64,000 bases of DNA, from positions 2,287,115-2,351,114 of the forward strand of contig NZ_LIUT01000001.1 in assembly GCF_001277345.1 (NCBI RefSeq), read 5' to 3'. Within the stretch, counting starts at the first letter, position 1, and each line of letters begins with the position of its first letter. This DNA comes from Paenibacillus solani (lineage in GTDB: Bacteria; Bacillota; Bacilli; Paenibacillales; Paenibacillaceae). Of this stretch, positions 4,881-19,734 are shown piece by piece. The notes under the pieces were generated by a model, which saw only the letters and a program-made list of their open reading frames with translations, was not told where the DNA came from and did no database searches. The translations under genes were made by a program, and so were the position numbers.

Positions 4881-4963
4881 ACTCAATAGCTTTTGGGGAT
4901 TCAAAAGCTATTGAGTAATACTTATTACGAGTATATCGTAACACTGAGTAGTGATGAAGTCAA
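4881..4963 (-). promoter_or_regulatory. padR promoter and leader with a perfect 15-bp inverted repeat
   Basis: On the minus strand a -35 TTGACT (4958-4963) and -10 TACGAT (4935-4940) are 17 bases apart, with the ACTCAGT box between them. The putative leader RNA then contains a perfect 15-base inverted repeat (arms 4881-4895 and 4902-4916, 6-base loop). No T-run follows on either strand, so it is not a standard terminator. It could be a DNA operator or an RNA structure. Confidence 0.5.
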
Positions 4964-4976
4964 CTGCTTTTTCAAT

Positions 4977-5960
4977 TCATTTTGTTTGACCATAAAGATC
5001 CCGGAAACGCCGGCCTAACAGCTCATATCCCTCGGCTCCTGGATGCAGGCCGTCCGTCAGAAAGGCTTCATCCTCCGGTCCAAGCCAGTTCAGGCCATCC
5101 TGATAGTATAATCGGCGATCGCCCCGCTCCCTGAGCATCTCCACCGTCTCGCGGATCGCTTGGCGCATCATGGGCAGGGTGAAGCCCAGCGGATTGAGCT
5201 CCGTTTCGCGGACGGTGCCATAAATCGGGGAGATGACAAGCAGCGGAGTCTCCCTGTGTTTTTCGCGTATGGTCTCCAGCAGTCCAATCAGCTGCGGCTT
5301 GAACATGCGAGGGCTTAAGGTGCCTGCGCCATAGATGTTTACGCCCGCACATATGGAGATGAACTCGGCCGGCAGGTCGCGTATCAGCCGCCCGATCATC
5401 GGTTCCATGTGGCAGTTGCCGGAGAAGCCGAGATTGGTCAAACTGAAGCCGCAGGCTTCGGCGGCAATGGCAGGCCAAGCGCGAGAGGGGCCGGAAGCCC
5501 CGACACACTGGGTAATAGAGCTGCCGTAAGTAATCCAGCGGGGCCGGGTGTCCGGCAGCGGGACTCCGACAGCTTGGGTGCCAATCCGCAGGCCGGTGAC
5601 GGTCATTCCTATGTTTTGCGGGAGCCAAATCTCCACATCCTTAATTTCGGCGGGAAGTCCGGTAAACAAGGCTTCTGTGGCTCCGACGGGCAGGCGAATT
5701 CTCTGGAGCAGTTCTCCTTCTGCGACACAATCCATAACGGCAGCATCCGCAAGAGATGTGAAGGATACTGCCACCTCTGCGGAATCCGTGCGCAGCCGCA
5801 GGCGAACACCGGCACAAATCTCGGCCTTGCCATCAATGCCCGCAGGCGGATACAGCTCGTAATCCATGTAAGGAATACGCCAAGGCTTGATTCCCTCCTC
5901 CCGATGCTGGAGCGACACGGCGCCGTGAAACCACTCATCCGTTAAAGGAAGCTGCTTCAC
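4977..5960 (-). CDS. SGNH/GDSL-family hydrolase (carbohydrate esterase-like)
   Basis: A 327-residue two-domain protein. Residues 1-135 form a beta-rich N-terminal domain. The SGNH domain follows with block I YGSSIT (nucleophile Ser148), block II LGFSGNC (Gly181), block III GVNIYG (Asn208) and block V DGLHP (Asp303, His306), so the triad and oxyanion residues are present. No signal peptide is seen, so it acts in the cytoplasm, probably removing acetyl or similar groups from imported oligosaccharides. Its ATG overlaps the stop of the FAD oxidoreductase by 4 bases (ATGA). It is the last gene of the locus-1 run. The exact ester substrate is unknown. Confidence 0.85.
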   Translation of the reverse strand: MKQLPLTDEWFHGAVSLQHREEGIKPWRIPYMDYELYPPAGIDGKAEICAGVRLRLRTDSAEVAVSFTSLADAAVMDCVAEGELLQRIRLPVGATEALFTGLPAEIKDVEIWLPQNIGMTVTGLRIGTQAVGVPLPDTRPRWITYGSSITQCVGASGPSRAWPAIAAEACGFSLTNLGFSGNCHMEPMIGRLIRDLPAEFISICAGVNIYGAGTLSPRMFKPQLIGLLETIREKHRETPLLVISPIYGTVRETELNPLGFTLPMMRQAIRETVEMLRERGDRRLYYQDGLNWLGPEDEAFLTDGLHPGAEGYELLGRRFRDLYGQTK

Positions 5961-7333
5961 GGTGCATCCCCTTCCTTCTGTTTCTCAGCCGGTGTGAAAT
6001 CCTCTCCCAGCCATACATCCTGCTCCAGCAGCCGCTGCTGAAGCTCGGCTACGGAAATGCCGCGCGAGGCGGAACCATCCCGCAGCGCCAATGCAGCTGC
6101 CGTGCCAGAAGCCTGGCCCATGGAGAAGCAGTTCGGCATCACCCGCAGGGAGCCTTGCACCGCACGATCGGAAGAGACGCTGCGTCCGGCCACCCAAAGG
6201 TTGTCGATGCCAACAGGCAGCATGATCCGATACGGTACGCCGTGGGAAACCCCCGGCGGCAAGTGGTTGAAGGTCATGTCGCTCTTGCTGTTAGCGAGAT
6301 GAATATCGATATAATATGCATTCCGGGCAATGTCATCCGGGAAGGAACGCGCAGCAAGAAAATCATCCACTGTCAGGATATAATCCCCTTCGATACGCCG
6401 CGTCTCCCGGATGCCGAGCTGCTCCCCGCTCGCCACCATATGGGCGTGCTCAAATCCCGGCACATAGCGGCGGAAGAACTGCAGCTGGCGTTCCGCCGTA
6501 CGGCGTCCTTCAATTGCCCCGCGCGTCAGATCCTCCGCAAGGGTGCCGTCCACGCCGAATACATGGCCGAAGTTAACCCCTACCAAATAGTCGCTGACCC
6601 AAGCCAAGCCGGAGATCGACTTTCTCCCCTCCGGCAGTGCACCATCGGCAATCGCCAGTTCTACCGTCTTATGCAGTTGACCTGTATCCCCACTCTCTTC
6701 CAGGAAACGCTTGAACTTCGGACGGTCCACATTCGCAAGCAGATAACACATGCTGCCGGGCTGAAGTTCGCCTTCATCCCCGCCCTTTTGAAAAGGAACT
6801 CCCGCCAGAGCGGCAATATCCCCATCTCCCGAGCAGTCGATAATATACCGGCAAGGAATGAACGAACGTCCTGTTTTGTTGACAACAATGACACCTTCAA
6901 TCTTCCGGCGGTCCTCAGACAGCACCACATCGTAAACAAAGGTATGATACAGCGGCGTAACGCCGTTTTCCAGAATGGCATCGTCATAAACCCGCTTCAG
7001 CACCTCGGGATCGATTGGCACCCAATCCAGAAGCTCCTGATATTCCTCACGGTACTGGGGATTGCATGCCTGCTTCATCCGTTCCATCAGCTCAAGTCCG
7101 AGACCGCGGATAATCGGCTTCCGCTTATCCGTAAAGGGACAGAAGGCCGGGACAAGCGCAACAGTGCCCATGCCGCCAAGGAATCCTCTCTGCTCCACCA
7201 GCATCGTTCGCGCTCCCCCTTGCGCAGCGGCAATAGCCGCGGCGATACCGGAAGCTCCTCCGCCGATTACCAGCACATCCACCTCATCGGCAACCGGAAT
7301 GTTGACCGATGGCAGCGTCATATGTCCGTTCAT
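5957..7333 (-). CDS. FAD-dependent oxidoreductase (PF12831-type)
   Basis: A flavoprotein of about 458 residues with an N-terminal dinucleotide fold VDVLVIGGGASGIAAAIAAAQGG, then the acidic strand end MLVEQRGFLGG. A second FAD contact, YIIDCSGDGDIAALAGVPF, lies mid-protein, and RSVSSDRAVQGSLRVMPNCFSMGQASGTAAALAL is the C-terminal FAD block. PF12831 proteins occur widely in polysaccharide-use clusters, where their sugar-oxidising role is poorly defined. The open frame reaches a TTG at 7402 inside the GH130 gene, but GGGGAGA lies 7-12 bases before the ATG at 7333. It sits between GH130 and the SGNH esterase, all co-directional and tightly spaced, so a joint role in breaking down imported sugars is inferred. 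Confidence 0.85.
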   Translation of the reverse strand: MNGHMTLPSVNIPVADEVDVLVIGGGASGIAAAIAAAQGGARTMLVEQRGFLGGMGTVALVPAFCPFTDKRKPIIRGLGLELMERMKQACNPQYREEYQELLDWVPIDPEVLKRVYDDAILENGVTPLYHTFVYDVVLSEDRRKIEGVIVVNKTGRSFIPCRYIIDCSGDGDIAALAGVPFQKGGDEGELQPGSMCYLLANVDRPKFKRFLEESGDTGQLHKTVELAIADGALPEGRKSISGLAWVSDYLVGVNFGHVFGVDGTLAEDLTRGAIEGRRTAERQLQFFRRYVPGFEHAHMVASGEQLGIRETRRIEGDYILTVDDFLAARSFPDDIARNAYYIDIHLANSKSDMTFNHLPPGVSHGVPYRIMLPVGIDNLWVAGRSVSSDRAVQGSLRVMPNCFSMGQASGTAAALALRDGSASRGISVAELQQRLLEQDVWLGEDFTPAEKQKEGDAP

Positions 7334-7377
7334 AGAGATCTCCCCATTTCTGTATAGCTTTATGATGTTATCATTGC

Positions 7378-8397
7378 TTATTTGACCGTGCCTTTCAGAC
7401 AAAGATGCAGCAGCTCATCTACGTGCGCAGTAGCCAGGCATTCTACGGTATCGGCGGCGCCGTAGTAGATTTTGACTTCACCGGACTCTTCCAGAATCAT
7501 GCCCCCTGGAAAAATAACATCATTGCGGAAGCCCCCTTCGGTCTCATAAGCAGCTTCCGGCGCCAGCAGCGGCGTCTCCGCCCTGCCGATGATCCGGCTG
7601 GGATCTTCGAGATCCAACAGCATAATGCCGGAAGTGTAACGCTTCTGCCAACTGTCCTCCCAGCCGTTCTTGCCCCGGCTGCGATCAATGTCCACCGCAT
7701 GGAACAGGGTCAGCCAGCCTTTATCCGTTTTGACAGGCGGAGCGCCCGGCCCTACCTTGTCATTGGCATAGGCTACATCTTCCACCGCCAGCAGCAGCTT
7801 GGAGTTGCCCCAGTATTTCAAGTCAGGCGAGTCGCTCATCCACATGTCAAAGCGGTCTATGCCGCCCCGGCTGTATACAGGCATTGGACGTTCGAGCCGA
7901 ACATACCTACCTCCGATCCGCTCCGGGAACAACACCATGTTTCGATTGTCCGGCAGCGACAGGCTCAGCACCTTAAAGGAAGCGAAATCCTCGGTCACGG
8001 CGATGCCGCCGCGCAGCCCGTGCTTGGTATCGACCGCAAAGCACATATAACATTGTTCGCCGATTACCGTTAAACGCGGATCATACACACGGATGACCTC
8101 TTCATCATGCCAGGACCAGCACGGTGTCGGCTGCACATCCCAGGCTATGCCGTCATCACTGAAGGCCAGCCCGAGATTGGTCGTATGATGAGGGGCGACA
8201 AGGCCCTGATGTTCATCGCCGTAGTCATTGCGAAATACCATCACATATTTGCCTTTAAACTTGGCAACCCCGGCGTTAAAGACCATCGCCGGACCGTAAG
8301 GCACATCACCCGGGGACAAAATCGGGTTCGCGGCATGCCGGGTCATAACCGGGCTGGAAAACAAAGGTCCTATTGTAGAATCTCTCATTTGCATCAT
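7378..8397 (-). CDS. GH130 family glycoside phosphorylase/hydrolase
   Basis: A 339-residue five-bladed beta-propeller enzyme. NPILSPGDVPYGPAMVFNAG, then the catalytic-Asp region RVYDPRLT, DNRNMVLFPERIGGRYVRLERP, FRNDVIFPGGMI and KIYYGAADT are GH130 landmarks. Family members phosphorolyse beta-mannosides (mannosyl-glucose, mannosyl-GlcNAc, mannooligosaccharides), releasing mannose 1-phosphate; some are hydrolases. No signal peptide, so it acts on imported sugar. ATGs at 8397 and 8394 follow AAGGAG very closely, and the third in-frame ATG is another option. A 323-base repeat-containing gap separates it from the permease gene upstream. Confidence 0.9.
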   Translation of the reverse strand: MMQMRDSTIGPLFSSPVMTRHAANPILSPGDVPYGPAMVFNAGVAKFKGKYVMVFRNDYGDEHQGLVAPHHTTNLGLAFSDDGIAWDVQPTPCWSWHDEEVIRVYDPRLTVIGEQCYMCFAVDTKHGLRGGIAVTEDFASFKVLSLSLPDNRNMVLFPERIGGRYVRLERPMPVYSRGGIDRFDMWMSDSPDLKYWGNSKLLLAVEDVAYANDKVGPGAPPVKTDKGWLTLFHAVDIDRSRGKNGWEDSWQKRYTSGIMLLDLEDPSRIIGRAETPLLAPEAAYETEGGFRNDVIFPGGMILEESGEVKIYYGAADTVECLATAHVDELLHLCLKGTVK

Positions 8398-8720: not shown

Positions 8721-9626
8721 TTAACCTTTGACTGAACCTGCTGTCACCTGAATAAATGACTTGTTTGCCACAATATAAGCGAGCAGCATTGGCAGGATAG
8801 ACAGACATGCTCCCGCCATCATCAAGTGGATCTGCATCGCCGCAGAGGAGCCGTAACGGAGGTTCGCCAGACCGACGGTGAGCGTCTGCAGGTGCGGATT
8901 CGTCATCGTGAACACCAGCGGAAGAATGTATTCGTTCCAGGCATGGCGGAAGGCAAACAGCCCGGCAACGCCCAGCCCCGGTGTCAAGAGCGGCAGAATA
9001 ATTCGGAAGAAGGTGCGGGCGAACCCGGAACCGTCCACCATTGCCGCTTCATCCAGCTCGCGGGGAATCGCTTTGAAGAAACCCAGCAGCATAAAAAATG
9101 TACTGGAATGCGCGCTGATCAGAATCAGGATAACTCCCCACAGCGTGGTATTCAGGTTCAGCGCGACCATCAAATCAAATTGCGGGCGCATCACAATGGC
9201 ACCAACGGATATAAACATCATCGAAGCCTGAGTTGTCACATACAGAGATTTGCCGGGGAAATTGCGCCGATCTACCACATAAGCCGCCATCGCAGCTACC
9301 AGCAGAGTGCCTGCCGTAACCATAATGCTGACAAAAGCACTGTTCCAGGTATAACGGGCAAAATTGGCCTGCTTCCAGGCTTCCGCATAGTTGACAAACT
9401 GCAGCTTGGCTGGCAGCAGGCTACCGCCAGTCATCATTTCAGCTCCAGTCTTGAGAGAACCGGACAATGTCATCAACAAAGGAAATAATGTCAGGATCGC
9501 CGTTATTAATAGAAACAGCCACATGACCGTACGCCCCATAATTCTGCCTGCGCGACCGGTTAACGGGCGTTCGGTTTTGCCGCGTCTGGCCGGCTGTTGG
9601 GTTTGAGGTAACACCTGTTCTTTCAT
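8721..9626 (-). CDS. Carbohydrate ABC transporter permease (MalG/LplC-like)
   Basis: A permease of about 301 residues with six membrane spans and the MetI-like loop ELDEAAMVDGSGFARTF...ILPLLTPG, the site that contacts the ATPase. The conserved IVANKSFIQ..T.GSVKG C-terminus marks the MalG-type partner. A longer frame begins with a GTG at 9644, but AGGAGG lies 9 bases before the ATG at 9626. It works with the 9712-10611 permease and the binding protein at 10684-12090. No ATPase is encoded in the locus, so a shared MsmX/UgpC-type ATPase elsewhere must drive it. It imports an oligosaccharide, probably a product of the secreted beta-helix enzyme. Confidence 0.93.
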   Translation of the reverse strand: MKEQVLPQTQQPARRGKTERPLTGRAGRIMGRTVMWLFLLITAILTLFPLLMTLSGSLKTGAEMMTGGSLLPAKLQFVNYAEAWKQANFARYTWNSAFVSIMVTAGTLLVAAMAAYVVDRRNFPGKSLYVTTQASMMFISVGAIVMRPQFDLMVALNLNTTLWGVILILISAHSSTFFMLLGFFKAIPRELDEAAMVDGSGFARTFFRIILPLLTPGLGVAGLFAFRHAWNEYILPLVFTMTNPHLQTLTVGLANLRYGSSAAMQIHLMMAGACLSILPMLLAYIVANKSFIQVTAGSVKG

Positions 9627-9711
9627 TTGCTGATCCTCCTGCACGCCTGCAGCCGTTCATTCTAAACCGATCTGCGGCGTTGTCATCAAATCTTAAAGTC
9701 ATACATAATCG

Positions 9712-10611
9712 CTAATACATTTTGTTCATTTTACGGCTCAATAAGAAATACAAGCCTGTAATGGCCCCGACAATAACAGCGGTTGCGAAGCCTACCGCGC
9801 TGCCATATCCGAGCTGCTGCTCTACAGGCGAACCCGTGGATACCGGGAACAACAGTTTATACAGATAGAGATACATGACCTCGGTTTTGCCGATCGGTCC
9901 GCCCTCGGTGATAAGCATAATGCTCTCATACCCTTTCAGGGATGCGATAATGGCGAGCATAATGACCAGCTGGGCAACCGGTGCCAGCATCGGAAGCGTG
10001 ATGTTCCAGAACCGTCTTCCGGCGTTCGCCCCGTCAATGGCCGCACTCTCGTACAAATCCTGCGGAATACTTTGCAATCCGGCCAGAAACAGCAGCATAT
10101 AATTGCCGACCGCGCCCCATACGGCTACAAGAATGACCGTAAGCATCGCATGCTTCGGACCTAGCCAGTCAATCGGCTGGGAGACCAGGTGCAGCTTCAT
10201 CAAAACCGTGTTCACCATCCCGTTGTAGGAATTGAAGATCGTATAGAACACAACGGATATCACTGCGGTACTGATGATCGTTGGCATAAAATAGATCCCG
10301 CGCAGCAGATTTCCGCCGCGCAGCTTGCCATTCAGGATGACAGCCAACAGCAGGGACAATGGCAGCGTTAGCAGCAACTTGCCTCCGGCATAGATAAAGG
10401 TGTTGCCCACCGATTCCCAGAACAGCGCGTCTCGCATCAGCCGGTGGAAATTATCCAGGCCAACGAACAGCGGCTGGCCGTATCCGGCATATTCGTAGAA
10501 CATATAGCGCAGCATCCAAAACAAAGGGTAGATTCCCAGGGCCGTCGTCAAAATAATGCTTGGGGCCAGAAACAGGGAGTTCTCCCCAAGTCGTTTCCAT
10601 TTAAAACTCAC
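9712..10611 (-). CDS. Carbohydrate ABC transporter permease (MalF/LplB-like)
   Basis: A permease of about 299 residues with six membrane spans. The EAA-type loop is LYESAAIDGANAGRRFWNITLPMLAP. The frame is open to 10653, but AAGGAGGAA sits about 6 bases before the GTG at 10611 (VSFKWKRLGEN), so the GTG start is chosen. A terminator-like hairpin (10640-10671) stands between it and the upstream binding-protein gene, suggesting that permease messages are less abundant than binding-protein messages. It forms the channel with the MalG-type permease downstream. Confidence 0.93.
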   Translation of the reverse strand: MSFKWKRLGENSLFLAPSIILTTALGIYPLFWMLRYMFYEYAGYGQPLFVGLDNFHRLMRDALFWESVGNTFIYAGGKLLLTLPLSLLLAVILNGKLRGGNLLRGIYFMPTIISTAVISVVFYTIFNSYNGMVNTVLMKLHLVSQPIDWLGPKHAMLTVILVAVWGAVGNYMLLFLAGLQSIPQDLYESAAIDGANAGRRFWNITLPMLAPVAQLVIMLAIIASLKGYESIMLITEGGPIGKTEVMYLYLYKLLFPVSTGSPVEQQLGYGSAVGFATAVIVGAITGLYFLLSRKMNKMY

Positions 10612-10639
10612 GATTCGTTCCTCCTTCGGGGAAAGAAAA

Positions 10640-10671
10640 GGGGCATCCGCCAAAAAGTGCGCGGCAGCCCC
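10640..10671 (-). terminator. Intercistronic hairpin after the binding-protein gene
   Basis: On the minus strand GGGGC...GCCCC closes a GC-rich hairpin with an inner GCCGC/GGCGG-like stem, followed by TTTTCTTT. It lies 12 bases after the binding-protein stop and just before the permease ribosome site. A partial terminator here would give the usual excess of binding protein over permeases. The second sugar locus has the same arrangement at 39045-39078. Confidence 0.7.
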
Positions 10672-10683
10672 ATCCTTGGCCAG

Positions 10684-12090
10684 TTATTCTCCCTGCGGTT
10701 TGGTTGGATCAAAGGCAGGGTTCGGCGTTGCAGTGGCCTCGCCTTTCTCGACCGCTGTGGACAATGCGGCGTTATACCTGGTGTTCAAATCTTCTGTAAT
10801 CGCTTTCGTGTCTCCACCTTCGAGAATGTATTTGAAGAAAGCGTCCGCATAGTTGGAACCCTCCGGCGTGATATTTGGCGACACAGGCCAGAGCGAGTCG
10901 TGTTCTCCAACCAGGAAGCCTTCCATGCCGCCGATCTCAGGTTCTTTGGCCTGTTCCACAATACTTGGCACAATGGCGATACCGAAGCCTTTTTCATGAT
11001 AGGTCTTCAGAATCTCGTCACCGTACATATACTGTATGAATTTCCAAGCGGCTTCCTTATTGGCCGATTGGGCGCTAATGCCGAGCCATGTTCCGGCAGA
11101 CACGATTTCGGAAGTCCCTTTAATCTGTCCGTCCAATGTTGGGGCCAGGGCACCGCCCCAGTTGATTTCAGTCGGGAATTGATCCATGTACACACCCGGC
11201 TCCGTCGAGAAGGACAGATACATACCGATCTTGCCTGCGGCAAATTGAGCACGCAGCGGGTCGATGTCCAGCGCCTCCGCCCCAGGCAGAATGCTGCCGT
11301 CAGCATACATTTGCTTGAAATATTCGATGACTTGAGCGTAAGGCTCAAAATCGAATTGTCCTGTTTTCAGATCAAAGCCAAGTCCCTGATGACCGCTCAA
11401 GGAAAGAATCTCCCGGATGGAACGGTCAAATGCCTGCTTCGGATTTTTGAAGTTCAGCGCGAAGCCATAGATGCCTTCAGCTTTGCCAACTTCGGTAATT
11501 TTCTTGGCATCGTCCACCATTTCCTGAAGCGATACCGGGGGATTCTCGATGCCCGCTTTGGCAAAGAGGTCCTTGTTATAGACCAAACGCAAGGTGAGAC
11601 CAGTATTGGCGAGCGTATACACTTTGCCATCAAAACGGTTGACCTCATCGATCAGCAGGCTGCCGAATTTCGTATTCATATCATCGGTAAGATACTCGTC
11701 AATTGGCGCGAGATAACCTTTTTTGACAAATCCGGACGTATTGGCGCTCTTTAGCCGCAGCACATCCGGTGCCTGGTTGCTGGAAAATGCAATGTCGACG
11801 CTTTGTGTGTAATTCTCAGACATCACCGTCAATTCCACCTGAATATTATCCTCGTTTGTCTCGTTGAACTTGTTGATCAATTCCTTGATATACTCTTGAT
11901 CGTGACGGTCGTCGGTCCAGTATTTAAGCTGTACGGGTTGGCCCGTCTCGGCTGTGGGAGTTTCCGTGCTGCCCTCGGACTTTCCATTCGTTGAACCTCC
12001 ATTCGCATTGTTGTTATCATTCCCGCCGCAGCCTGCGATGCCGACGGCCAGAACGAGGCTCAAGCCGAGGCCTAACCATTTTTTTCGCAT
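10684..12090 (-). CDS. Extracellular sugar-binding lipoprotein of an ABC importer
   Basis: A 468-residue family-1 solute-binding protein. MRKKWLGLGLSLVLAVGIAGC is a lipoprotein signal with the lipid-anchored Cys at 21, followed by an Asn/Ser/Thr-rich linker. VQLKYWTDDRHDQEYIKELINKF starts the binding fold, and PFAKAGIENPPVSLQEM-type and AWKFIQYMYGDE segments are typical of oligosaccharide binders. ATG 12090 follows GGGGGAGAATGT. It is the first gene of the transporter unit. Its promoter at 12135-12186 shares a 30-base element with the secreted beta-helix enzyme gene, which ties the importer to that enzyme. Confidence 0.93.
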   Translation of the reverse strand: MRKKWLGLGLSLVLAVGIAGCGGNDNNNANGGSTNGKSEGSTETPTAETGQPVQLKYWTDDRHDQEYIKELINKFNETNEDNIQVELTVMSENYTQSVDIAFSSNQAPDVLRLKSANTSGFVKKGYLAPIDEYLTDDMNTKFGSLLIDEVNRFDGKVYTLANTGLTLRLVYNKDLFAKAGIENPPVSLQEMVDDAKKITEVGKAEGIYGFALNFKNPKQAFDRSIREILSLSGHQGLGFDLKTGQFDFEPYAQVIEYFKQMYADGSILPGAEALDIDPLRAQFAAGKIGMYLSFSTEPGVYMDQFPTEINWGGALAPTLDGQIKGTSEIVSAGTWLGISAQSANKEAAWKFIQYMYGDEILKTYHEKGFGIAIVPSIVEQAKEPEIGGMEGFLVGEHDSLWPVSPNITPEGSNYADAFFKYILEGGDTKAITEDLNTRYNAALSTAVEKGEATATPNPAFDPTKPQGE

Positions 12091-12134
12091 ACATTCTCCC
12101 CCTTGATTGACTCTTATATTGTGAACTCGTTGTT

Positions 12135-12186
12135 ATTATAGACCCTCGTATTCAGAAAAGGAGTGCGGCAATTTCACTCTCCAGGG
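12135..12186 (-). promoter_or_regulatory. Promoter with conserved 30-bp activator element (copy 1)
   Basis: TATAAT on the minus strand at 12135-12140 is preceded, 16 bases upstream, by a 30-base element at 12157-12186. It begins CCCTGGAGAGTG and ends TGCC-n-CACTCCTTT, and contains the dyad GAGTG-n9-CACTC. The element covers the place of the -35 box, and no TTGACA-like hexamer is present, so the promoter is probably activator-dependent. Copy 2 at 19040-19069 is 25 of 30 identical with the same 16-base spacing. The AraC-type response regulator encoded directly upstream is the obvious candidate activator. Confidence 0.75.
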
Positions 12187-12217
12187 ACAGAATTCTATGG
12201 TCTGTGCAGCATGTACC

Positions 12218-13843
12218 TTACGTCTCCGGTCGGTCCATATGATAGCCTGCCCTGAACTCCGAAGGCGTCTGCCCCGTGATTTTCTTGAACATTTCACTGA
12301 AATATCTGCGCTCCTCATACCCGACAGCCGCAGCCACCTCCTGCACCTGCGCCCCCTCCACAAGCAGTAGCCTCGCTTTTTGGATACGTTCCGAGGTCAT
12401 ATACTGTGTGACGGTCATCCCGGTCACCTGCTTAAACAAGCTGGAAAAATAGCTGGCGCTGAGATGCACGTGGGCCGCGCAATCGCCGACGGTAATATCC
12501 TCGGACAAACGGCGCTTGATATAGTCAATGGCTTTATAAATAACCTTCTGCCCTTCGGATAAGCTGTTCCGGCGCACCAGTTCGGCTCCCTCCGTGCACA
12601 AGACAAGCAGTTGACGCTGCAAAGAGGCCAGCGGTACCCCTGTCGTCCCTTGCCCTGCCCTGAATCTCTGGATCAGCGGTTGTATGTCCGAATATGGAAC
12701 CATTTCATAAAAGGTGCGGATTGCTGAAGCGGCCAGCTCATCGTACAAGCTGAGGAGATAGTCCGGATTTTGCCTGGAGATCAGCTTCTGCAGCGTTTCC
12801 GAAATTGTGGACAAAATAGTGTTCGTCCGGTCCACGTTCCCGGAACGAAGGGCAAGCAGCAACTCGTCCTTGTATTCCAGCGCCAGCGGCTCCTGACTTC
12901 CGCTCTGATGAATGTCGTTATACATAATAGCCGCATTGCCTTCGGTGAATAGATGGTGGGAGAGCGCGCGATGAGCCTGACGATAGGAATCCGGCAGCTC
13001 GCTGATCTCCTCCACTCTGCCGCCGACACCGACCGAAACCGTGAACTTGGTATAGTGTTCAATATTCCGGCAGCACTGCTCGGCAATTTCGATCGGACTG
13101 GACGGTCCTGTATCGTTCAGTACGGCCAAGTACCGGTCATGGCGGGCGCGAAAAACAACTCTGCAAGCATATTCGGCAAGTGTCTCCTGCATAATGTTCA
13201 ACAACGAGAACCGGATCAGCTCCATCTCCCGGATGGACTGCTCGGCAACCTGCTCCCGAAAACGGTCAATTTCAATCAGCATCACTACGAACCCCCGCGG
13301 CTCCAGCTCGATATTCAGAAAATCCCACCGTCCCGAGGCCTCTTCCCATGAAGTGCGGTGGCTGACAAGCAGCGCAAAATATTCCTGCCGCAGCACCGGC
13401 ATGCTCTCACGCAGCTTGTTCTCCAATTCCCTCAGGCTTAGCAGCTTGGACTTCTCTTCCATAATCTCCGCTTTGGCTCGCAGCACTGCCGACATAATAT
13501 CTTCTTCCGAGAAGGGTTTCACCACGAAATCAAATGCCCCCAGCTGCACCGCCTGCTGCGCATATTCAAAGTCCGCATACCCGCTGATCAGAATAACCTT
13601 GCAGCTGCGGTTCTCTTCCAGAACTGCGCGCAGCATACTCAGCCCGTCCATTCTCGGCATTCTTATATCGGTAATGATCAGATCCGGCTGCAATTCGTTG
13701 ATCAGCTTAAGCCCATCTTCCCCATTGCTCGATACACCCGCGACCTGAATGCCCTGTTCTTCCCAGTTCATCGCGGTCAGCCCGTCTACCACGCTTTTGA
13801 TATCATCAATAATGCAAAGACGGATCGCCTCAGGATTGCTCAT
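12218..13843 (-). CDS. Two-component response regulator with AraC-type DNA-binding domain (YesN-like)
   Basis: A regulator of about 541 residues. An N-terminal receiver domain has the phospho-acceptor Asp in LIITDIRMPRMDG (about residue 59) and Lys in VVKPFSEED. A long linker of about 300 residues follows, then two AraC helix-turn-helix units at the C-terminus (ITVGDCAAHVHLSASYFSSLFKQVTGMTV and VQEVAAAVGYEERRYFSEMFKKITGQTPSEFR). The start ATG at 13843 overlaps the kinase gene by 14 bases and follows AAGGGGGG, whereas the upstream in-frame start at 13903 lies deep in the kinase gene. It probably activates the binding-protein and beta-helix-enzyme promoters that share a 30-base element. Confidence 0.93.
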   Translation of the reverse strand: MSNPEAIRLCIIDDIKSVVDGLTAMNWEEQGIQVAGVSSNGEDGLKLINELQPDLIITDIRMPRMDGLSMLRAVLEENRSCKVILISGYADFEYAQQAVQLGAFDFVVKPFSEEDIMSAVLRAKAEIMEEKSKLLSLRELENKLRESMPVLRQEYFALLVSHRTSWEEASGRWDFLNIELEPRGFVVMLIEIDRFREQVAEQSIREMELIRFSLLNIMQETLAEYACRVVFRARHDRYLAVLNDTGPSSPIEIAEQCCRNIEHYTKFTVSVGVGGRVEEISELPDSYRQAHRALSHHLFTEGNAAIMYNDIHQSGSQEPLALEYKDELLLALRSGNVDRTNTILSTISETLQKLISRQNPDYLLSLYDELAASAIRTFYEMVPYSDIQPLIQRFRAGQGTTGVPLASLQRQLLVLCTEGAELVRRNSLSEGQKVIYKAIDYIKRRLSEDITVGDCAAHVHLSASYFSSLFKQVTGMTVTQYMTSERIQKARLLLVEGAQVQEVAAAVGYEERRYFSEMFKKITGQTPSEFRAGYHMDRPET

Positions 13844-15593
13844 CCCAATGCCCCCCTTTCCTTGGTAAAGAAATCCGTATTTCTGTTCCGCGCTCCGGCG
13901 CACTGTTCACATGCAACTCCGCATCATCCCCATAATAGAGCTGGAGCCGCCGGATCATATTGGACACGGCATACCCTTTCTTCGATTCCAGCCAAAAGAG
14001 CGCGCGTACTTGGGTCTGATCCATGCCGTTGCCGTTATCGCGCACGGCAATTGTCCAGCGCTCCCTGTCACCGGCAACGTCGATCTCGATCCGACCGCCG
14101 TCCTTCAGGTCGCGAAATCCGTGCAAAATGCTGTTCTCAACCAGCGGCTGCAGCATGATGCGCGGAATCGAAAGCGCGGACAATTCCGGTTCGCGTACAT
14201 GGATTTCATAAGAGAATAAGCCTTCATAGCAGTTTGACTGCAGCTCCATATACTGGCGCACATGCTCCAGCTCTTTGGACAATGTCGTAATTTCCCGGCC
14301 ATTGTTCAGCCCAAGTTGGAACAGACGGGAGAGCGACATAACCATCTGCTGTGACGGCTCGATCTGCTTTAATTTCAGCTTCCAGTAGATGGTGTTCAAC
14401 GTGTTGTACAGAAAATGTGGGTCCATCTGCGCCGACAGCGCTTTGATCTCCGCAGACCGCTTATGCGTCTGCGCTTCCGTGACCTCATCGATCAACACCA
14501 CAATCTGCTCCAGCATCCGGTTGAACCGAAAGCCCACCTGTCCCAGCTCATCTCCGCTGCTGCTCTCAAATCGGGCGGTCAGATCGTTATTCTCCACCCG
14601 CTTCATCACCTTCAGCAGTCCTTGCAGCGGCTTTAACAAATGGCGCGAAAACGCGCCGGAGATCAGCATGGTAACCACGAAAGCAACCAAAGCTACCCCG
14701 GCGATCAGCCATTTAACATACACCAAGTCCTGAAGAACATCGGCCTGGGACCGAATGGTGGTCATCGTCCAATCCGCAATGCCAAGCTGGGCATAATTAA
14801 GCAAATAGGTTTTACCATTCAGTTCAAAGGATTGTCTGCCCTCAGGACGGTTCATGACGCCGCTTAAGTTACCCTCATCAACCGCCTGCCGAACCAGCGG
14901 CTCCTTCACAGGGTAGACCGCCTCGCCCTCAGCGTTCAGCAGGAAGCTGGACGCTCCTTCACCGCTATCTCCCTGCACCAGCTTTCGGAAGCCGTCCTCC
15001 CGGATATTCACGACAATATAAACATCGTTTACCGGGTTGTCAAAAATCGGCACCAGAATCAGCGAAATAACGCGTTCTCTGCCCGAGAAGAGCATGTCCT
15101 CATGCCCCTCCACCCAAAGGTTCTTTTTCTCCTGTTCGATGCGCTCATACAGGAAGGTATCCTCGAATGCGGTAAGTCGGTTGCGATTCGCAGACGAGGG
15201 ATAAAACTCGCCAATTGGCGTGGATACATAGATTGACTGGATTAGCGGCTCAGCGATCCGCGCCTGTGAGAAAACGTTATCAAGATCGTTCAAATGTGTA
15301 AAATACCTGCCGGTTTCGCCGGAGGCGGCATCCCTTAGCATATCGTAGAAAGGCTGGCTGACCATGAACGTCATCATAATCAGCATCAGTTTATTCAGCT
15401 TCTCATCCACAATTTGCGCCGAGCGGACCACCGTGTCCTGCGTGAGCTTCAGCGCATTTTTCTCCAGGGTAGCGGCCGAGATGTAATAAGATAACCCGCC
15501 GGTCATCAGAACAGAGAGCACAATGACGGCCAGAAATGCGACTTTGAGTTTGTTGCGGAATGATTGCCTGTGGAAATAATCCAAGCTTTTCAC
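13830..15593 (-). CDS. Sensor histidine kinase (YesM-like)
   Basis: A 587-residue membrane kinase. An N-terminal membrane span (about 15-37), an extracellular Cache-like sensor of about 250 residues, a second span near 290-310 and a HAMP region (SRHLLKPLQGLLKVMKRVENNDL) precede the His_kinase domain, with the phospho-His in MDPHFLYNTLNTIYWK. The ATP-binding lid is RDNGNGMD. The apparent GTG start at 15593 leaves only one base to GGAAGG; the TTG three codons on has better spacing. YesM kinases sense plant-polysaccharide breakdown products and signal to the AraC-type regulator, whose gene overlaps the 3' end. Confidence 0.93.
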   Translation of the reverse strand: MKSLDYFHRQSFRNKLKVAFLAVIVLSVLMTGGLSYYISAATLEKNALKLTQDTVVRSAQIVDEKLNKLMLIMMTFMVSQPFYDMLRDAASGETGRYFTHLNDLDNVFSQARIAEPLIQSIYVSTPIGEFYPSSANRNRLTAFEDTFLYERIEQEKKNLWVEGHEDMLFSGRERVISLILVPIFDNPVNDVYIVVNIREDGFRKLVQGDSGEGASSFLLNAEGEAVYPVKEPLVRQAVDEGNLSGVMNRPEGRQSFELNGKTYLLNYAQLGIADWTMTTIRSQADVLQDLVYVKWLIAGVALVAFVVTMLISGAFSRHLLKPLQGLLKVMKRVENNDLTARFESSSGDELGQVGFRFNRMLEQIVVLIDEVTEAQTHKRSAEIKALSAQMDPHFLYNTLNTIYWKLKLKQIEPSQQMVMSLSRLFQLGLNNGREITTLSKELEHVRQYMELQSNCYEGLFSYEIHVREPELSALSIPRIMLQPLVENSILHGFRDLKDGGRIEIDVAGDRERWTIAVRDNGNGMDQTQVRALFWLESKKGYAVSNMIRRLQLYYGDDAELHVNSAPERGTEIRISLPRKGGHWDEQS

Positions 15594-15620
15594 GCCTTCC
15601 GTTAAAATCTGTATCCTTCG

Positions 15621-15650
15621 ATTATGTCACCGCAGTCCCCTGTTCGACAA
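15621..15650 (-). promoter_or_regulatory. Likely sigma-A promoter of the kinase-regulator operon
   Basis: On the minus strand TTGTCG (15645-15650) and CATAAT (15621-15626) are 18 bases apart, 28 bases upstream of the kinase start. It lies just after the terminator of the beta-helix-enzyme gene, so the two-component genes form their own unit. Confidence 0.5.
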
Positions 15651-15651
15651 T

Positions 15652-15704
15652 GTTAAAAAAGAAGCTGGCCCCAAAAGCCGTTTTTTGGGCTTTTGGGGCA
15701 GCTC
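15652..15704 (-). terminator. Rho-independent terminator of the beta-helix-enzyme gene
   Basis: Arms GCCCCAAAAGCC/GGCTTTTGGGGC with flanking AGCT pairs form a stem of about 16 base pairs (15664-15704). On the minus strand it is followed by TTCTTTTTT. It separates the secreted enzyme from the downstream kinase gene. Confidence 0.85.
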
Positions 15705-15786
15705 CTTCGCAGGATTCCATTTACGTTGGCCGATATATGACTCGATTCATATTGGACGAATACGGGCCTGCGTCATGCGGTAACCG

Positions 15787-18700
15787 TTAATTCGGGTCGG
15801 GAACCAGAACCAGAGCTTCATCAAAAGCTACGCCGGCTGAGGTTGTCCGAAATCCTATCTTCCCTTCCGTCAATTCCGTTACAGGATTGGTCCATTCCAC
15901 TTTCAATTCTCCATCCACATAACATTTCATGGTGTTCCCTTGGATGGCAGCCTTAATCGTATACCACTGCTTCTCCATCGCCGTGAACGGAGTACTGGAT
16001 ACAAGCGTCATGTTGTTATCTACGGATTTGTACAACTCCAGCTTTTTAGCTGCTGAATTGATTCGATACATATAAAAATTCTCTGCGTCCTGTACTCTGA
16101 AGAGAATGCCTGCATTGGCATTACTAATGGGCATCTTCACTTTGGCTTCATACGTATAGTCCGTCCATGCATCACCGGCGGTAATGAGTGCAGCAGCTGA
16201 ACTATGCTGAATCAAAGCATTGGTGTCGTCTGCTGCAACGCTCCAGGATCCTGAAGCCGGCGTCCATCCAGTCGTATCTCCATCTTCAAAATCGTCGCTG
16301 AATTGGATGAACGTAGGGACCGGATTAACGGGAGGTTCATTCACATCCGTGACCTGGATCGTAAACATCTTCTCGTAGTACATTCCCCCTGAGTCTATGC
16401 TCTTCACCCGGATACTGTAGCTGTCCTGCACTTCGTAATCAGGCGTCACAGCAAGAAACAATGCATTGTCCGATATGGTGAAGCTTTTGTTGTCCGCGTC
16501 CCCGGCTCCTGCTGTCAGCATGTAAGCAAATGTCTCCCCCTCATCAGGGTCGATGGTGGAGAATGTTCCGACCATACCTCCTGCCGTTGTGTTTTCAACT
16601 ACGCTGCTGTGGGAGAGCACAATATCCTCAGGCGCTTTATTGATTGAGGAAACAATGGCATCGTCAAAATGGACGCCCGCCGAGGTTGTCCGGAATCCGA
16701 TTCCCCCTGCTGTCAATTCTGTTGCAGGATTGGTCCATTCCATTAGTAATTCTCCATCCACATAACAGGAAATCGTGTTCCCTTGTACAACCGCCTTAAC
16801 CTTATACCACTGCTTCTCTCTGGCTGTGAACGGAGTGTTGGCTACAGACGTCAATTGTCCGTTTACAGATTTGAATAACTCCAGCTGTTTAGCTGCTGAA
16901 TTGATTCGATACATATAAAAATTCGCTGCATCCTGTACTCTGAAGAGAATACCTGCATTGGCATTGGTAATTGGCATTCTCACTCTGGCTTCATAAGCAT
17001 AGTCCTTCCATGAGCCACCGGCATTCGCGGTAATCAGCGATGTAGTCGTCTGGTTCCCGCTGGATAACACTTTATTTGTGCCGTCTGTCGGTACTGTCCA
17101 GCCGCCAGAAACCGGTGTCCATCCCGCCGTATTTCCGTCTTCAAAATTGTCGCTGAACAGCGGTGGCTTGGAATTGGCGAAGACGATACCATTTACATTA
17201 CTGTTAGCGGTGGCATTCAGGTCGTTCAAGTTGGTTGCGAGCTTGCCTTCAACATACACATCCGTGAACGTGACACCGTTAACCATTCCACCTTTTGTGG
17301 CATTCCCGGAAAGCCTGGATTTCTGAGATCCCGTCTCACGAACATTGATGTTCTTGAATGTAACATTGCTGACATCGCCGGAAGTACTGGTTGAAACCCC
17401 GAACCAATAATTCCCGAATTGATTGATACCGACTCGTTCGATATCGATATTCTCAAATGTAATATTCTGGGCGTATCCTTCCTCCGGAAGGGTATTCAAT
17501 TGGTAACCATGGTCAATGAGCAGTGCTCGGGCGCTCTGATACACATACGAATTTCGGATGGTTACGCCAATCTGCGGCTGAGCTACCCCCATGCCAATCT
17601 TGAAAGCCGCACATCGGGTCCATGCAAGAACGTCGTCAAAGACCACATTTTCCAAATGTTCAAGCTCTCCCGGCCATCCTTTGGACATGCCCGTCTGCAG
17701 CCAGGTTTTAGTAGAAAATGTGTCATCATCCGATATCCCGATCGCGTGCTGGACCAGCACGTCCTGACTTTCGTTTATATCGATAACGTCATTCTCGATT
17801 TTGTATAAATCCTGGAAGCCCTTCAGATTTTTTATCGTCACATTGTCGGAACGAACAACCATAAACGACCAGAAGCCGCCGTCCCGCAATATTAAACCAT
17901 CAAAATTAAAATTCGTGGTTGCGATCGGAACCAGCAGGTTATTCAGGAATCCTTCATTTTTGTTCGGTGCCGGCATCTTCCGCTCGCGCATCGCTATGCC
18001 TTTACCATCAATAGTTCCTCGTCCCCGTATCGTAATATTGCTGGAATCTGTCGCCGTACGAATAAAATACGTTCCATCCGCATTACGTGAATCCTTGCGA
18101 AAATCATTCGTGTAGTCCTCACCCTTGCCTGTGCCGACAATCACGGCACCTCCGGCGAGGTAAAAGGTCACATTGCTCTTTAAAGTCAGGTTCCCGCTTT
18201 TATAGACACCTGCCGGAACAAATACAACACCGCCGCCGGCTTGATTAGCGTCATCGATAGCCTGCTGGATACCATCCGATGCCATCCATGTCCCCGTGTT
18301 ATCCACGTTGTATGGCGACTCTGTCACATTATAAATCCCGGCACCTGTGGACGGGGGAATATCTGTCTCCAAGGGATCTGCTGCGATGACAATTTTCTTT
18401 TTCCAGTCGTTGATTTTTACGATCACATAAGTGGAGGAAGAAAGCGTAAATGTCAGCTTGTTTCCATTGACCGTACCTGCGATGTTTTTGGCCTGCGGAC
18501 TGATGGAGTAAGATGTAATCGGCTCATTCACAGTAACTTCGATCTTGACCGTGCCGGAAAAAGAAAATTGAGCGTAATCATAGTCAGCCAGATAACTGAT
18601 AACAGGAACCGCTTCGTTATCCGCTTTTAATGAAAACAGACTGGATGCGGTATAGATGGATGGCATCGGGTAGTTCTGTATCGTGGCTGGACTACTTGCG

Positions 18701-18861
18701 GCCTGTGTCAACGATGCCGGATCAATGGCATCTATCATATCCGCCGAATAAACAGAATGGCTCTCCATCTCGGTCGCATTCGCAGCTCGGGGTAAAAATC
18801 CGGTGATTATAATGGCAAGCACGACCAACAGACTCACTGCTTTTCTTGTCATGGTAAGCAT
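15787..18861 (-). CDS. Secreted right-handed beta-helix glycan-degrading enzyme (GH28/pectate-lyase-like fold) with duplicated C-terminal module
   Basis: A 1024-residue exported protein. The signal peptide covers about 1-30 (LLVVLAIIITGFLPRAANA). A beta-strand domain (about 85-165) is followed by a parallel beta-helix from about 180 to 560, opening with the Pectate_lyase_3 style GIQQAIDDANQAGGGVVFVPAGVY. Acidic sites NDVID (357-361) and SDDD (377-380) plus CAAFKIG (about 417) resemble but do not exactly match the GH28 active site. Two near-identical LamG/concanavalin-like modules (569-739 and 854-1020) flank a cadherin-like domain (740-850). It probably acts on pectin or a related plant polymer, but the exact activity is uncertain. 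Its promoter shares the 30-base element with the ABC importer. It starts at ATG 18861 after GAGGAGG. Confidence 0.8.
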   Translation of the reverse strand: MLTMTRKAVSLLVVLAIIITGFLPRAANATEMESHSVYSADMIDAIDPASLTQAASSPATIQNYPMPSIYTASSLFSLKADNEAVPVISYLADYDYAQFSFSGTVKIEVTVNEPITSYSISPQAKNIAGTVNGNKLTFTLSSSTYVIVKINDWKKKIVIAADPLETDIPPSTGAGIYNVTESPYNVDNTGTWMASDGIQQAIDDANQAGGGVVFVPAGVYKSGNLTLKSNVTFYLAGGAVIVGTGKGEDYTNDFRKDSRNADGTYFIRTATDSSNITIRGRGTIDGKGIAMRERKMPAPNKNEGFLNNLLVPIATTNFNFDGLILRDGGFWSFMVVRSDNVTIKNLKGFQDLYKIENDVIDINESQDVLVQHAIGISDDDTFSTKTWLQTGMSKGWPGELEHLENVVFDDVLAWTRCAAFKIGMGVAQPQIGVTIRNSYVYQSARALLIDHGYQLNTLPEEGYAQNITFENIDIERVGINQFGNYWFGVSTSTSGDVSNVTFKNINVRETGSQKSRLSGNATKGGMVNGVTFTDVYVEGKLATNLNDLNATANSNVNGIVFANSKPPLFSDNFEDGNTAGWTPVSGGWTVPTDGTNKVLSSGNQTTTSLITANAGGSWKDYAYEARVRMPITNANAGILFRVQDAANFYMYRINSAAKQLELFKSVNGQLTSVANTPFTAREKQWYKVKAVVQGNTISCYVDGELLMEWTNPATELTAGGIGFRTTSAGVHFDDAIVSSINKAPEDIVLSHSSVVENTTAGGMVGTFSTIDPDEGETFAYMLTAGAGDADNKSFTISDNALFLAVTPDYEVQDSYSIRVKSIDSGGMYYEKMFTIQVTDVNEPPVNPVPTFIQFSDDFEDGDTTGWTPASGSWSVAADDTNALIQHSSAAALITAGDAWTDYTYEAKVKMPISNANAGILFRVQDAENFYMYRINSAAKKLELYKSVDNNMTLVSSTPFTAMEKQWYTIKAAIQGNTMKCYVDGELKVEWTNPVTELTEGKIGFRTTSAGVAFDEALVLVPDPN
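15802..16302 (-). repeat. Second copy of the LamG-like module in the beta-helix enzyme
   Basis: Codes for residues 854-1020. The stretches ANAGILFRVQDA-NFYMYRI and IGFRTTSAGV are nearly the same as in the copy at 16645-17157. The similarity is visible in the DNA as well, which points to internal duplication or ongoing gene conversion. Confidence 0.85.
16645..17157 (-). repeat. First copy of the LamG-like module in the beta-helix enzyme
   Basis: Codes for residues 569-739, beginning FSDNFEDGNTAGWTP and ending GVHFDDAIVSS. It pairs with the copy at 15802-16302 and is separated from it by a cadherin-like domain. Modules of this kind usually bind carbohydrate. Confidence 0.85.
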
Positions 18862-19017
18862 TAATACCTCCTCAACATTATTCGTCTTCCCACCGATAAT
18901 AAGGCAGCGCAGCTCCGTTCGCCCAACCGTATTCTTGTTTATGGCGCTATGAATGCGCTACCATTTTTTCGGACGATCAAGCCCTCCCTCCGTTAAAACT
19001 TTTCACTGTCAAATTGG

Positions 19018-19069
19018 ATTATAATGCCTGTCCAAAAAGAAAGGAGTGAGGCAGGCCCACTCTCCAGGG
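19018..19069 (-). promoter_or_regulatory. Promoter with conserved 30-bp activator element (copy 2)
   Basis: TATAAT (minus strand, 19018-19023) with the 30-base element at 19040-19069, 16 bases upstream as in copy 1. It is 25 of 30 identical to 12157-12186, including CCCTGGAGAGTG and CACTCCTTT. The leader to the ATG at 18861 is about 150 bases and contains a weak cre-like GGTAGCGCATTC. The rest of the 408-base gap 18862-19269 holds a terminator (19205-19245) and nothing else recognised. Confidence 0.75.
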
Positions 19070-19204
19070 ATACATTTCAACTGTTCTCCTTACACGCGGG
19101 AAATGTGAAATCCGCAATATGTTAAAGAAGAGAAACTGAAAATTATGTATGTACTCTTTTATAGACACTTTTTCATAGCGCCTGAAGCGGGTCTGAAAAT
19201 ATGC

Positions 19205-19245
19205 CAAAAAGGCTTACTCCCTCTTCAATAAGTGGAGTAAGCCTT
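19205..19245 (-). terminator. Rho-independent terminator of the VOC gene
   Basis: A perfect 12-base stem AAGGCTTACTCC/GGAGTAAGCCTT (19209-19220 and 19234-19245) is followed on the minus strand by TTTTTGG. It lies 25 bases after the VOC gene. Confidence 0.85.
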
Positions 19246-19269
19246 CCAAGTATTTGGTCAACATTCAAT

Positions 19270-19734
19270 TTACTGTTTACTCGACATAACTCTATCAAGA
19301 AACTGTTCTGCATCACGATTAAATTTCCAGGATATGCCGAACTTATCAACCAGCATTCCAAAGCACGAAGACCAAGGAGTATTGGATAAAGGCATTAGAA
19401 TTTTGCCACCAACAGACAAATTATTAAAGTAATCTGTCAGTGTTTGTTTATCATCAATGACTAGACTTATAAGTACATTATTTCCTTGCACCAACTCACC
19501 TGTTAGCCTCTTCATGGAAGGTAAAATATCCGACATCATGAGTTTCCCGCCTGCGAAATCTATCGAGGATTCCATGATCATATTTAATTCATTCTCTGGC
19601 AATGGGTAGTTGGGATCTTGAGGAAAATCATTGAACTTTACCTTTTTTACCTCCTTTGCATTTAATGCCTCCGAATAAAATTCAATCGCTTGTTCTGCGA
19701 TTCCATCAAAATTCAAGTATGCAACAGCTGACAT
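19270..19734 (-). CDS. VOC family protein (PhnB/glyoxalase-like)
   Basis: A 154-residue protein with the vicinal-oxygen-chelate fold: AVAYLNFDGIAEQAIEFYSEALNAKE opens the first beta-alpha-beta unit, and SLVIDDKQTLTDYFNNLSVGGKILMPL with FGMLVDKFGISWKFN close the second. PhnB-like members lack a firmly known activity; some resist antibiotics and others act as dioxygenase-like enzymes. It is divergent from a WYL regulator with about 100 bases between, a layout that suggests control by that regulator. It starts at ATG 19734 after AAGGAGGT. Confidence 0.85.
   Translation of the reverse strand: MSAVAYLNFDGIAEQAIEFYSEALNAKEVKKVKFNDFPQDPNYPLPENELNMIMESSIDFAGGKLMMSDILPSMKRLTGELVQGNNVLISLVIDDKQTLTDYFNNLSVGGKILMPLSNTPWSSCFGMLVDKFGISWKFNRDAEQFLDRVMSSKQ

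Follow-up and report, generated by a model that had tools for sequence, protein, structure and literature searches.

A conserved promoter element, predicted to be the operator of a YesN-type regulator, precedes an importer operon and a beta-helix enzyme gene in Paenibacillus solani

Two promoters in a 64,000-nucleotide (nt) stretch of the Paenibacillus solani genome (hereafter the window) carry nearly the same 30-bp sequence in front of genes of different kinds, which raises the question of what the two genes share and which protein would read the common sequence. The copies, E1 (minus strand 12186-12157, CCCTGGAGAGTGAAATTGCCGCACTCCTTT) and E2 (minus strand 19069-19040, CCCTGGAGAGTGGGCCTGCCTCACTCCTTT), are identical at 25 of 30 bases, both contain the dyad GAGTG-n9-CACTC, and both are followed exactly 16 nt downstream by TATAAT (12135-12140 and 19018-19023, respectively, minus strand), all of which had been pointed out in the original prediction and is confirmed by the sequence. 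E1 stands directly before the gene for the solute-binding protein of an ATP-binding cassette (ABC) importer (10684-12090) and E2 directly before a gene for a beta-helix protein (15787-18861), and between these two targets, on the same minus strand, lie the genes of a sensor histidine kinase (13830-15593) and of a YesN-type response regulator (12218-13843). A search of the window with the pattern CCCTGGAGAGTG-n9-CACTCCTTT, allowing up to three mismatches, gave two matches, as opposed to none in 100 dinucleotide shuffles, and no third copy was found in the whole 6.2-Mb genome (up to three mismatches at 21 fixed positions). The original prediction attributed the likeness to shared control by the regulator encoded between the targets, and co-occurrence in 394 genomes, the identity of the targets and the genomes that lack the regulator make this the best reading. 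We consider it very likely that E1 and E2 are the 30-bp cores of operators of about 47 bp, at which this regulator, as the predicted binder, would activate both the importer operon and the beta-helix gene.

The comparison covered a genus set of 100 genomes, P. solani included, and a family set of 394 genomes; in the genus the element was searched with a degenerate pattern (up to three mismatches) built from in-genus copies, and in the family a regulator was accepted at 56% identity or more and E-value <= 1e-180. Within the genus, a regulator ortholog was found in 26 of the 100 genomes, 78-90% identical to the P. solani protein in other species, and the element in 29, namely the same 26 and three others. 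Across the family, the regulator was present in 48 genomes and the element in 51: 44 genomes had both, four only the regulator, seven only the element and 339 neither (Fisher p ~4e-46, uncorrected for relatedness). The four regulator-only genomes have diverged elements at the same place, with 0-2 mismatches in the left 12 bases and 2-7 in the right half. Outside the genus, an in-frame element stands before the importer gene in all 22 genomes with the regulator, the -10 hexamer being one base closer to the importer-side element in G138 and G141. Thus, scanning relatives for the element and its 16-nt spacing, as the original prediction had suggested, gave an element that follows the regulator and a spacing that is largely kept (see below).

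The genes behind the element are also of the same kinds. In 23 of the 26 regulator-bearing genus genomes the importer gene is read directly behind it; for G082, G083 and G086 only the pattern match, which lies near the regulator, was observed. The beta-helix ortholog occurs in 19 of the 100 genus genomes, 18 of these with the regulator, and the element is upstream of it in all 18 that have both gene and regulator, even where the two are far apart, as in G046, in which the beta-helix gene is at 6.97 Mb and the regulator at 1.45 Mb of a 7.54-Mb contig. Outside the genus there were 34 pattern matches, of which 14 precede an importer gene, 16 a beta-helix homolog (one of them broken), one a kinase gene (G276) and three no recognised target (G156, G175, G330). 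Random placement in relatives, which the original prediction had named as evidence that would count against it, is therefore not what we observed, since 31 of the 34 matches precede one of these three kinds of gene. The description as a two-promoter regulon fits P. solani but not the whole group, as some relatives have three or four sites (G276, G278, G324 and G363 each have three or more, together with more than one beta-helix gene) and in G276 an element with three mismatches also precedes the kinase gene. Facing the other way in G276 (L191, ~4930-5070), a weaker element with five mismatches precedes a further beta-helix-like gene, so that both autoregulation and a divergent promoter pair are possible there; in P. 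solani, nothing in the 300 nt before the kinase gene comes closer to the element than 12 mismatches.

Where the regulator is missing, the targets are disrupted, lost or not preceded by the element. Seven genomes have the element but no regulator at E 1e-180, and in none of them is there an intact target behind the element: no recognised target follows it in G026, G030, G055, G156, G175 and G330, and G122 has a beta-helix gene there that is split over three reading frames. A search within ~5 kb of the element in G122, G156, G175 and G330 found no relative of the regulator, though it does not exclude more distant regulators elsewhere in these genomes. The reverse case is G002, where the beta-helix gene is present, there is no regulator ortholog (at 78% identity or more), and the upstream region is a different one that has no element. 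Elements with no intact beta-helix gene behind them were seen at L079 (G008), L067 (G058), L073 (G052), L077 (G086), L080 (G026), L081 (G030), L082 (G055), L185 (G156) and L186 (G175), most of them with a -10 hexamer; they look like promoters left behind after loss of the target, and we counted them, together with those of G122 and G330, as relics rather than as functional support.

One may also consider that the element is the operator of another protein, encoded elsewhere, and that the YesN-type regulator is a mere neighbour. In its favour, part of the genus (L018-L030) has a further gene, by eye AraC-like and cupin-like at its start, which separates the regulator from the importer gene. However, neither the window nor close relatives that carry the element have this inserted gene, the element tracks the YesN-type regulator across the 394 genomes, and paralogous regulators have sequences of their own in the same frame (see below), so that we regard this alternative as improbable and retain control by the YesN-type regulator. 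As a separate observation, at L018-L030 the element stays with the importer gene despite the insertion.

How a regulator might act at these sites can be judged from the promoter geometry. The fetched loci contain 79 distinct copies of the element. In 70 of them a hexamer with at most one mismatch to TATAAT lies exactly 16 nt downstream; of the other nine, three have TATAAT at 15 nt, two have TATTGT at 16 nt and four have no -10 hexamer, the last all at sites without a target (G026, G055, G052 and G330). Conservation begins well upstream of the 30-bp element: in the 22 distinct importer copies the mean per column rises from 0.35 bits (-86 to -64) to 1.64 (-63 to -47) and amounts to 1.73 for the element, 0.90 for the spacer and 1.93 for the -10 hexamer, and the corresponding values for the 22 distinct beta-helix-type copies are 0.39, 1.60, 1.76, 1.50 and 1.85. 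The conserved block is about 47 bp long, from about -63 to -17 counted from the start of the -10 hexamer. Hence the 30-bp copies of the original prediction are real but were drawn too short, by about 17 bp at the upstream end (12187-12203 for E1 and 19070-19086 for E2, minus strand), and its placing of the element at the -35 position holds for one end, as only about the last seven bases overlap the usual -35 position, and not for the rest. The best match to TTGACA at a spacing of 16-18 nt has only one or two of the six bases in 69 of 70 copies. Given a block of about 47 bp without a -35 box, an activator site is the best reading; the fixed distance between site and -10 and the weak or missing -35 fit the class of AraC-type activators whose site lies at the -35 region, and the layout is as expected for an activator-dependent promoter, binding and activation themselves being predictions from sequence.

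The overlap of the element's end with the usual -35 position would also suit a repressor that blocks RNA polymerase there. In this case, however, there is no -35 hexamer to be covered, the targets are broken or gone where the regulator is missing, and sites of AraC-type two-component regulators that lie upstream of mapped starts in Caldicellulosiruptor are read as activator sites in the accessible text of that study (PMC8579813). Repression therefore seems to us very unlikely, and activation by the YesN-type regulator is the explanation that we pursue here.

Related regulators appear to have sister sites in the same frame. We examined 44 of 68 places in the genus that hold paralogous regulators, which are 39-44% identical, and downstream of 35 of the 44 we observed CCCT (or CCAT) 46 nt before a -10 hexamer, as in the element described above (group A), but with other inner sequences: 23 of these sites form group B (e.g. 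CCCTTAATGTGGGTTTACCCGCATTAT), ten group C (e.g. CCCTGAATAGTTGTTTTCTCCTTCACT) and two group D. The regulators of these three subgroups are 40-44% identical. As for the nine places without the frame, a group B site lies further downstream in G052 and G030, and in the other seven another gene, by eye, comes directly after the regulator. Extra DNA lies between the paralogous regulator and the group B operator at both L122 (G052) and L144 (G030); at L122 it contains, by eye, repeated units of ~50 bp around GGAAACAACGGCAGAAATGCCGTTGTTGGG. The P. solani genome has 19 GGDEF_2 matches, 17 of them over the cut-off, and at its 18 other GGDEF_2 loci, which were also read downstream by eye, the frame CC[C/A]T-n42-TATAAT-like was found on neither strand; the frame thus belongs to one branch and not to all YesN regulators.

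The DNA-binding domains of the four groups differ in a pattern that can be set beside these sites. In the first helix-turn-helix (HTH), group A has mostly SASYFSSLF (with V, P or T in place of A), group B QGYFSNLF or PGYFSNLF, group C PSYFSNLF and group D GG-Y/H-FASQF, whereas the second is nearly alike in A, B and D (GY-E/H-ERRYFS) and reads GYDEPRYFT in C. Relative to A, the main difference of groups B and D thus lies in the first recognition helix, and C departs more in the second. One could imagine a modular operator code, in which an outer block (the CCCT 46 nt before the -10 and the bases just upstream of it) would be common to the four subgroups and the inner part would be subgroup-specific. 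B and D fit a swap of the first helix but C differs more in the second, so support for such a code is mixed, and we put it forward only as a tentative and rather doubtful idea. If it were true, exchange of the inner half within a fixed-frame operator would have been the route by which these regulators diverged, and operator-regulator pairs would be predictable across Paenibacillus and Cohnella.

The dyad noted in the original prediction is present in both copies, but it passes only some of the permutation tests and a role for it is unproven. Symmetry was judged by column permutations, with several tests and uncorrected fractions: a 7-bp dyad as good as that observed was reached by none of 60 permutations in the two group A sets, A1 and A2, and the 10- and 14-bp windows were not significant in either. 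In group B the fraction was 0.02 for the 10-bp window and 0.42 for the 7-bp window, in group C no window was significant (10-bp borderline, 0.05), and in group D, with two sequences only, the dyad is at a different place. The two arms may represent half-sites of a dimer. An operator built of tandem direct repeats was also considered and finds no support in groups A and B, where a direct repeat with ~21-bp periodicity was not significant by column permutations (fractions 0.28 to 0.93); group C has a weak direct repeat at offset 23 (0.05).

A dyad followed by a T-rich tail might also be the terminator of the upstream gene, the likeness of the two copies then being coincidental or an RNA feature, and E2 is indeed on a list of terminator-like sites (seven pairs). 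E1, in contrast, is not on that list, the conserved block extends 17 bp upstream of the hairpin, the distance to the -10 is the same in 70 of the 79 copies, and no Rfam family matches 11500-19500 at gathering score. Furthermore, the arms change without compensation: of the 44 different copies in group A, the right arm differs in 15 (all beta-helix-type) and the left arm in three (all importer), but no copy is altered in both. A hairpin seen by eye at ~19198-19235 already lies behind the gene 19734-19270, which would leave E2 without a terminator role. A terminator is in our view highly unlikely. The window has a strong terminator-like hairpin elsewhere, at 15668-15699 between the beta-helix and kinase genes, and one sub-threshold match to a miRNA in Rfam falls on this terminator (15661-15705). 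A recent duplication or a mobile repeat without function would account for a 25/30 likeness at two places but is hardly conceivable, since the likeness stops at operator and -10, many genomes retain the copies as separate units between flanks that vary, and the same kinds of gene lie behind 31 of the 34 matches found blind.

Several observations weigh against control of both promoters by the YesN-type regulator. The pattern used in the genus was derived from the in-genus copies themselves, and the relatedness of the genomes inflates the co-occurrence statistic. In G118, G121, G114, G108 and G126 the regulator is present while the right half of the importer-side element has five to eight mismatches (the element in G118 has nine), so that part of the sequence is either not strictly needed or has changed together with the protein. 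In four regulator-bearing genus genomes (G008, G052, G058 and G086) a spare element stands with no intact beta-helix gene behind it, and in G009 (L075) and G059 (L074) ~820 nt devoid of long reading frames separate the element from the start of the beta-helix gene, a gap that may be either a long leader or an insertion. The spacer, freer at the importer promoters, is well conserved at the beta-helix promoters. Control by the regulator encoded between the targets remains our preferred reading, and the following course of events is proposed: the kinase, probably sensing an external carbohydrate cue, would phosphorylate the regulator, whose active form would bind the two operators at about -63 to -17 and bring RNA polymerase to promoters that have a good -10 and lack a -35. 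Importer operon and beta-helix enzyme would then be switched on together, so that extracellular digestion and uptake of the products could begin at once.

By their Pfam domains, kinase and regulator have the make-up of a two-component system of the YesM/YesN type: the regulator has a receiver, a GGDEF_2 and an AraC-type double HTH domain, all above cut-off, and the adjacent membrane kinase has His_kinase, HAMP and HATPase_c, with dCache_1 below cut-off. The solute-binding protein (SBP_bac_1) gene is followed by those of two permeases (BPD_transp_1; 9712-10653 and 8721-9644), in an order kept in relatives. Further genes on the minus strand, assigned by Pfam, are probable later members of the operon as judged by gene order in relatives: a GH130-type phosphorylase (7378-8397), which is behind the permeases in most relatives, an oxidoreductase dependent on flavin adenine dinucleotide (FAD; 5957-7402) and a GDSL/SGNH-type hydrolase (4977-5960). 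Before the GH130 gene of P. solani the best element-like stretch has 13 mismatches. Nineteen of the 20 loci L280-L299 contain the importer gene, and the twentieth is a contig that ends within the regulator. In all 19 the element (up to four mismatches) precedes this gene, which is followed, in conserved order, by two permease genes and then by GH130 and/or the FAD oxidoreductase; within the fetched stretch, the SGNH gene is behind the FAD gene in eight of the 19. A scan of named genomes, which overlap the 394-genome set and are not counted twice, found the cluster in P. macerans, P. camerounensis, P. montaniterrae and P. daejeonensis, to give examples for Paenibacillus, and in Cohnella fermenti and C. 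panacarvi, where one locus (L301) has no element at up to five mismatches. In Paenibacillus cellulositrophicus (NZ_CP045296.1, L283) the whole cluster with both elements is on an 897-kb replicon named a plasmid and predicted to be non-mobilizable.

The beta-helix protein is, from its N-terminal sequence, probably secreted. Its GH28 match covers only residues 215-384, there are two regions of the 3-keto-disaccharide-hydrolase type, and the rhamnogalacturonidase models of NCBIfam match far below cut-off, so its activity may be unusual. As the NCBIfam matches are far below cut-off and those to PDB entries are weak, we name no substrate. The regulon ties an uncharacterised importer to the beta-helix enzyme, and with both in one regulon they would be tied to one substrate.

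The original prediction knew of no published operator of this form, and a literature search that included few subscription journals found none either; the published texts found, as far as accessible, give no precisely mapped operator for YesN-type regulators. Regulators of this type have reportedly been studied in Geobacillus stearothermophilus. Comparable systems are nonetheless on record. The AraC-type regulons of Caldicellulosiruptor bescii (AviRS, BxgRS and others; PMC8579813) also combine a sugar importer with a kinase/regulator pair encoded next to it, importer genes and a secreted glucanase are predicted to be under joint control of AviRS, and the sites are upstream of the promoter and read as activator sites, all as here. 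Going by the descriptions in the accessible text rather than by logos, however, the sites in that other genus are tandem repeats with large spacers, in contrast to the dyad core with fixed 16-nt spacing in P. solani (PMC8579813). In Clostridium cellulolyticum, XydS/XydR likewise pairs a kinase with an AraC-type response regulator for genes of secreted plant cell wall enzymes, and the DNA-binding part of XydR shifts two upstream regions; binding is placed only within a few hundred bases, unlike the defined element here, and in the accessible text the authors state that no consensus site is identifiable for the AraC/XylS family (PMC3572039).

Two further comparisons concern rhamnose regulators. 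RhaS of E. coli is described as binding two facing half-sites at rhaBAD, the nearer one at the -35 region, a layout like the one that the dyad here would give (PMC9722767, PMC3870299, PMC12858550). The first 12 bases of its far half-site, ATCTTTCCCTGG, match the far block of E1 and of E2 at 10 of 12 positions, which was reached by 21 and 16 of 5000 shuffles, respectively, but the cut at 12 bases was chosen afterwards and over all 17 bases of the half-site the likeness does not exceed chance (754 and 828 of 5000 shuffles), so we reject this likeness. RhaS is not known to have a receiver domain, unlike the P. solani regulator. Predicted AraC-type rhamnose regulators of Bacillales are comparable in that they serve carbohydrate regulation in related bacteria and their sites, too, were derived by comparing genomes; as reported in the accessible text (PMC3870299), these sites are direct repeats with 21-bp periodicity, whereas group A has no significant direct repeat. 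The P. solani system is thus of a known kind, and the gain is a defined candidate operator for a type of regulator that is numerous in P. solani and whose operators are little known: one conserved site in a fixed promoter geometry that is linked to a single regulator, and three sister sites that share its frame, which makes binding, symmetry and specificity accessible to tests on short DNA probes.

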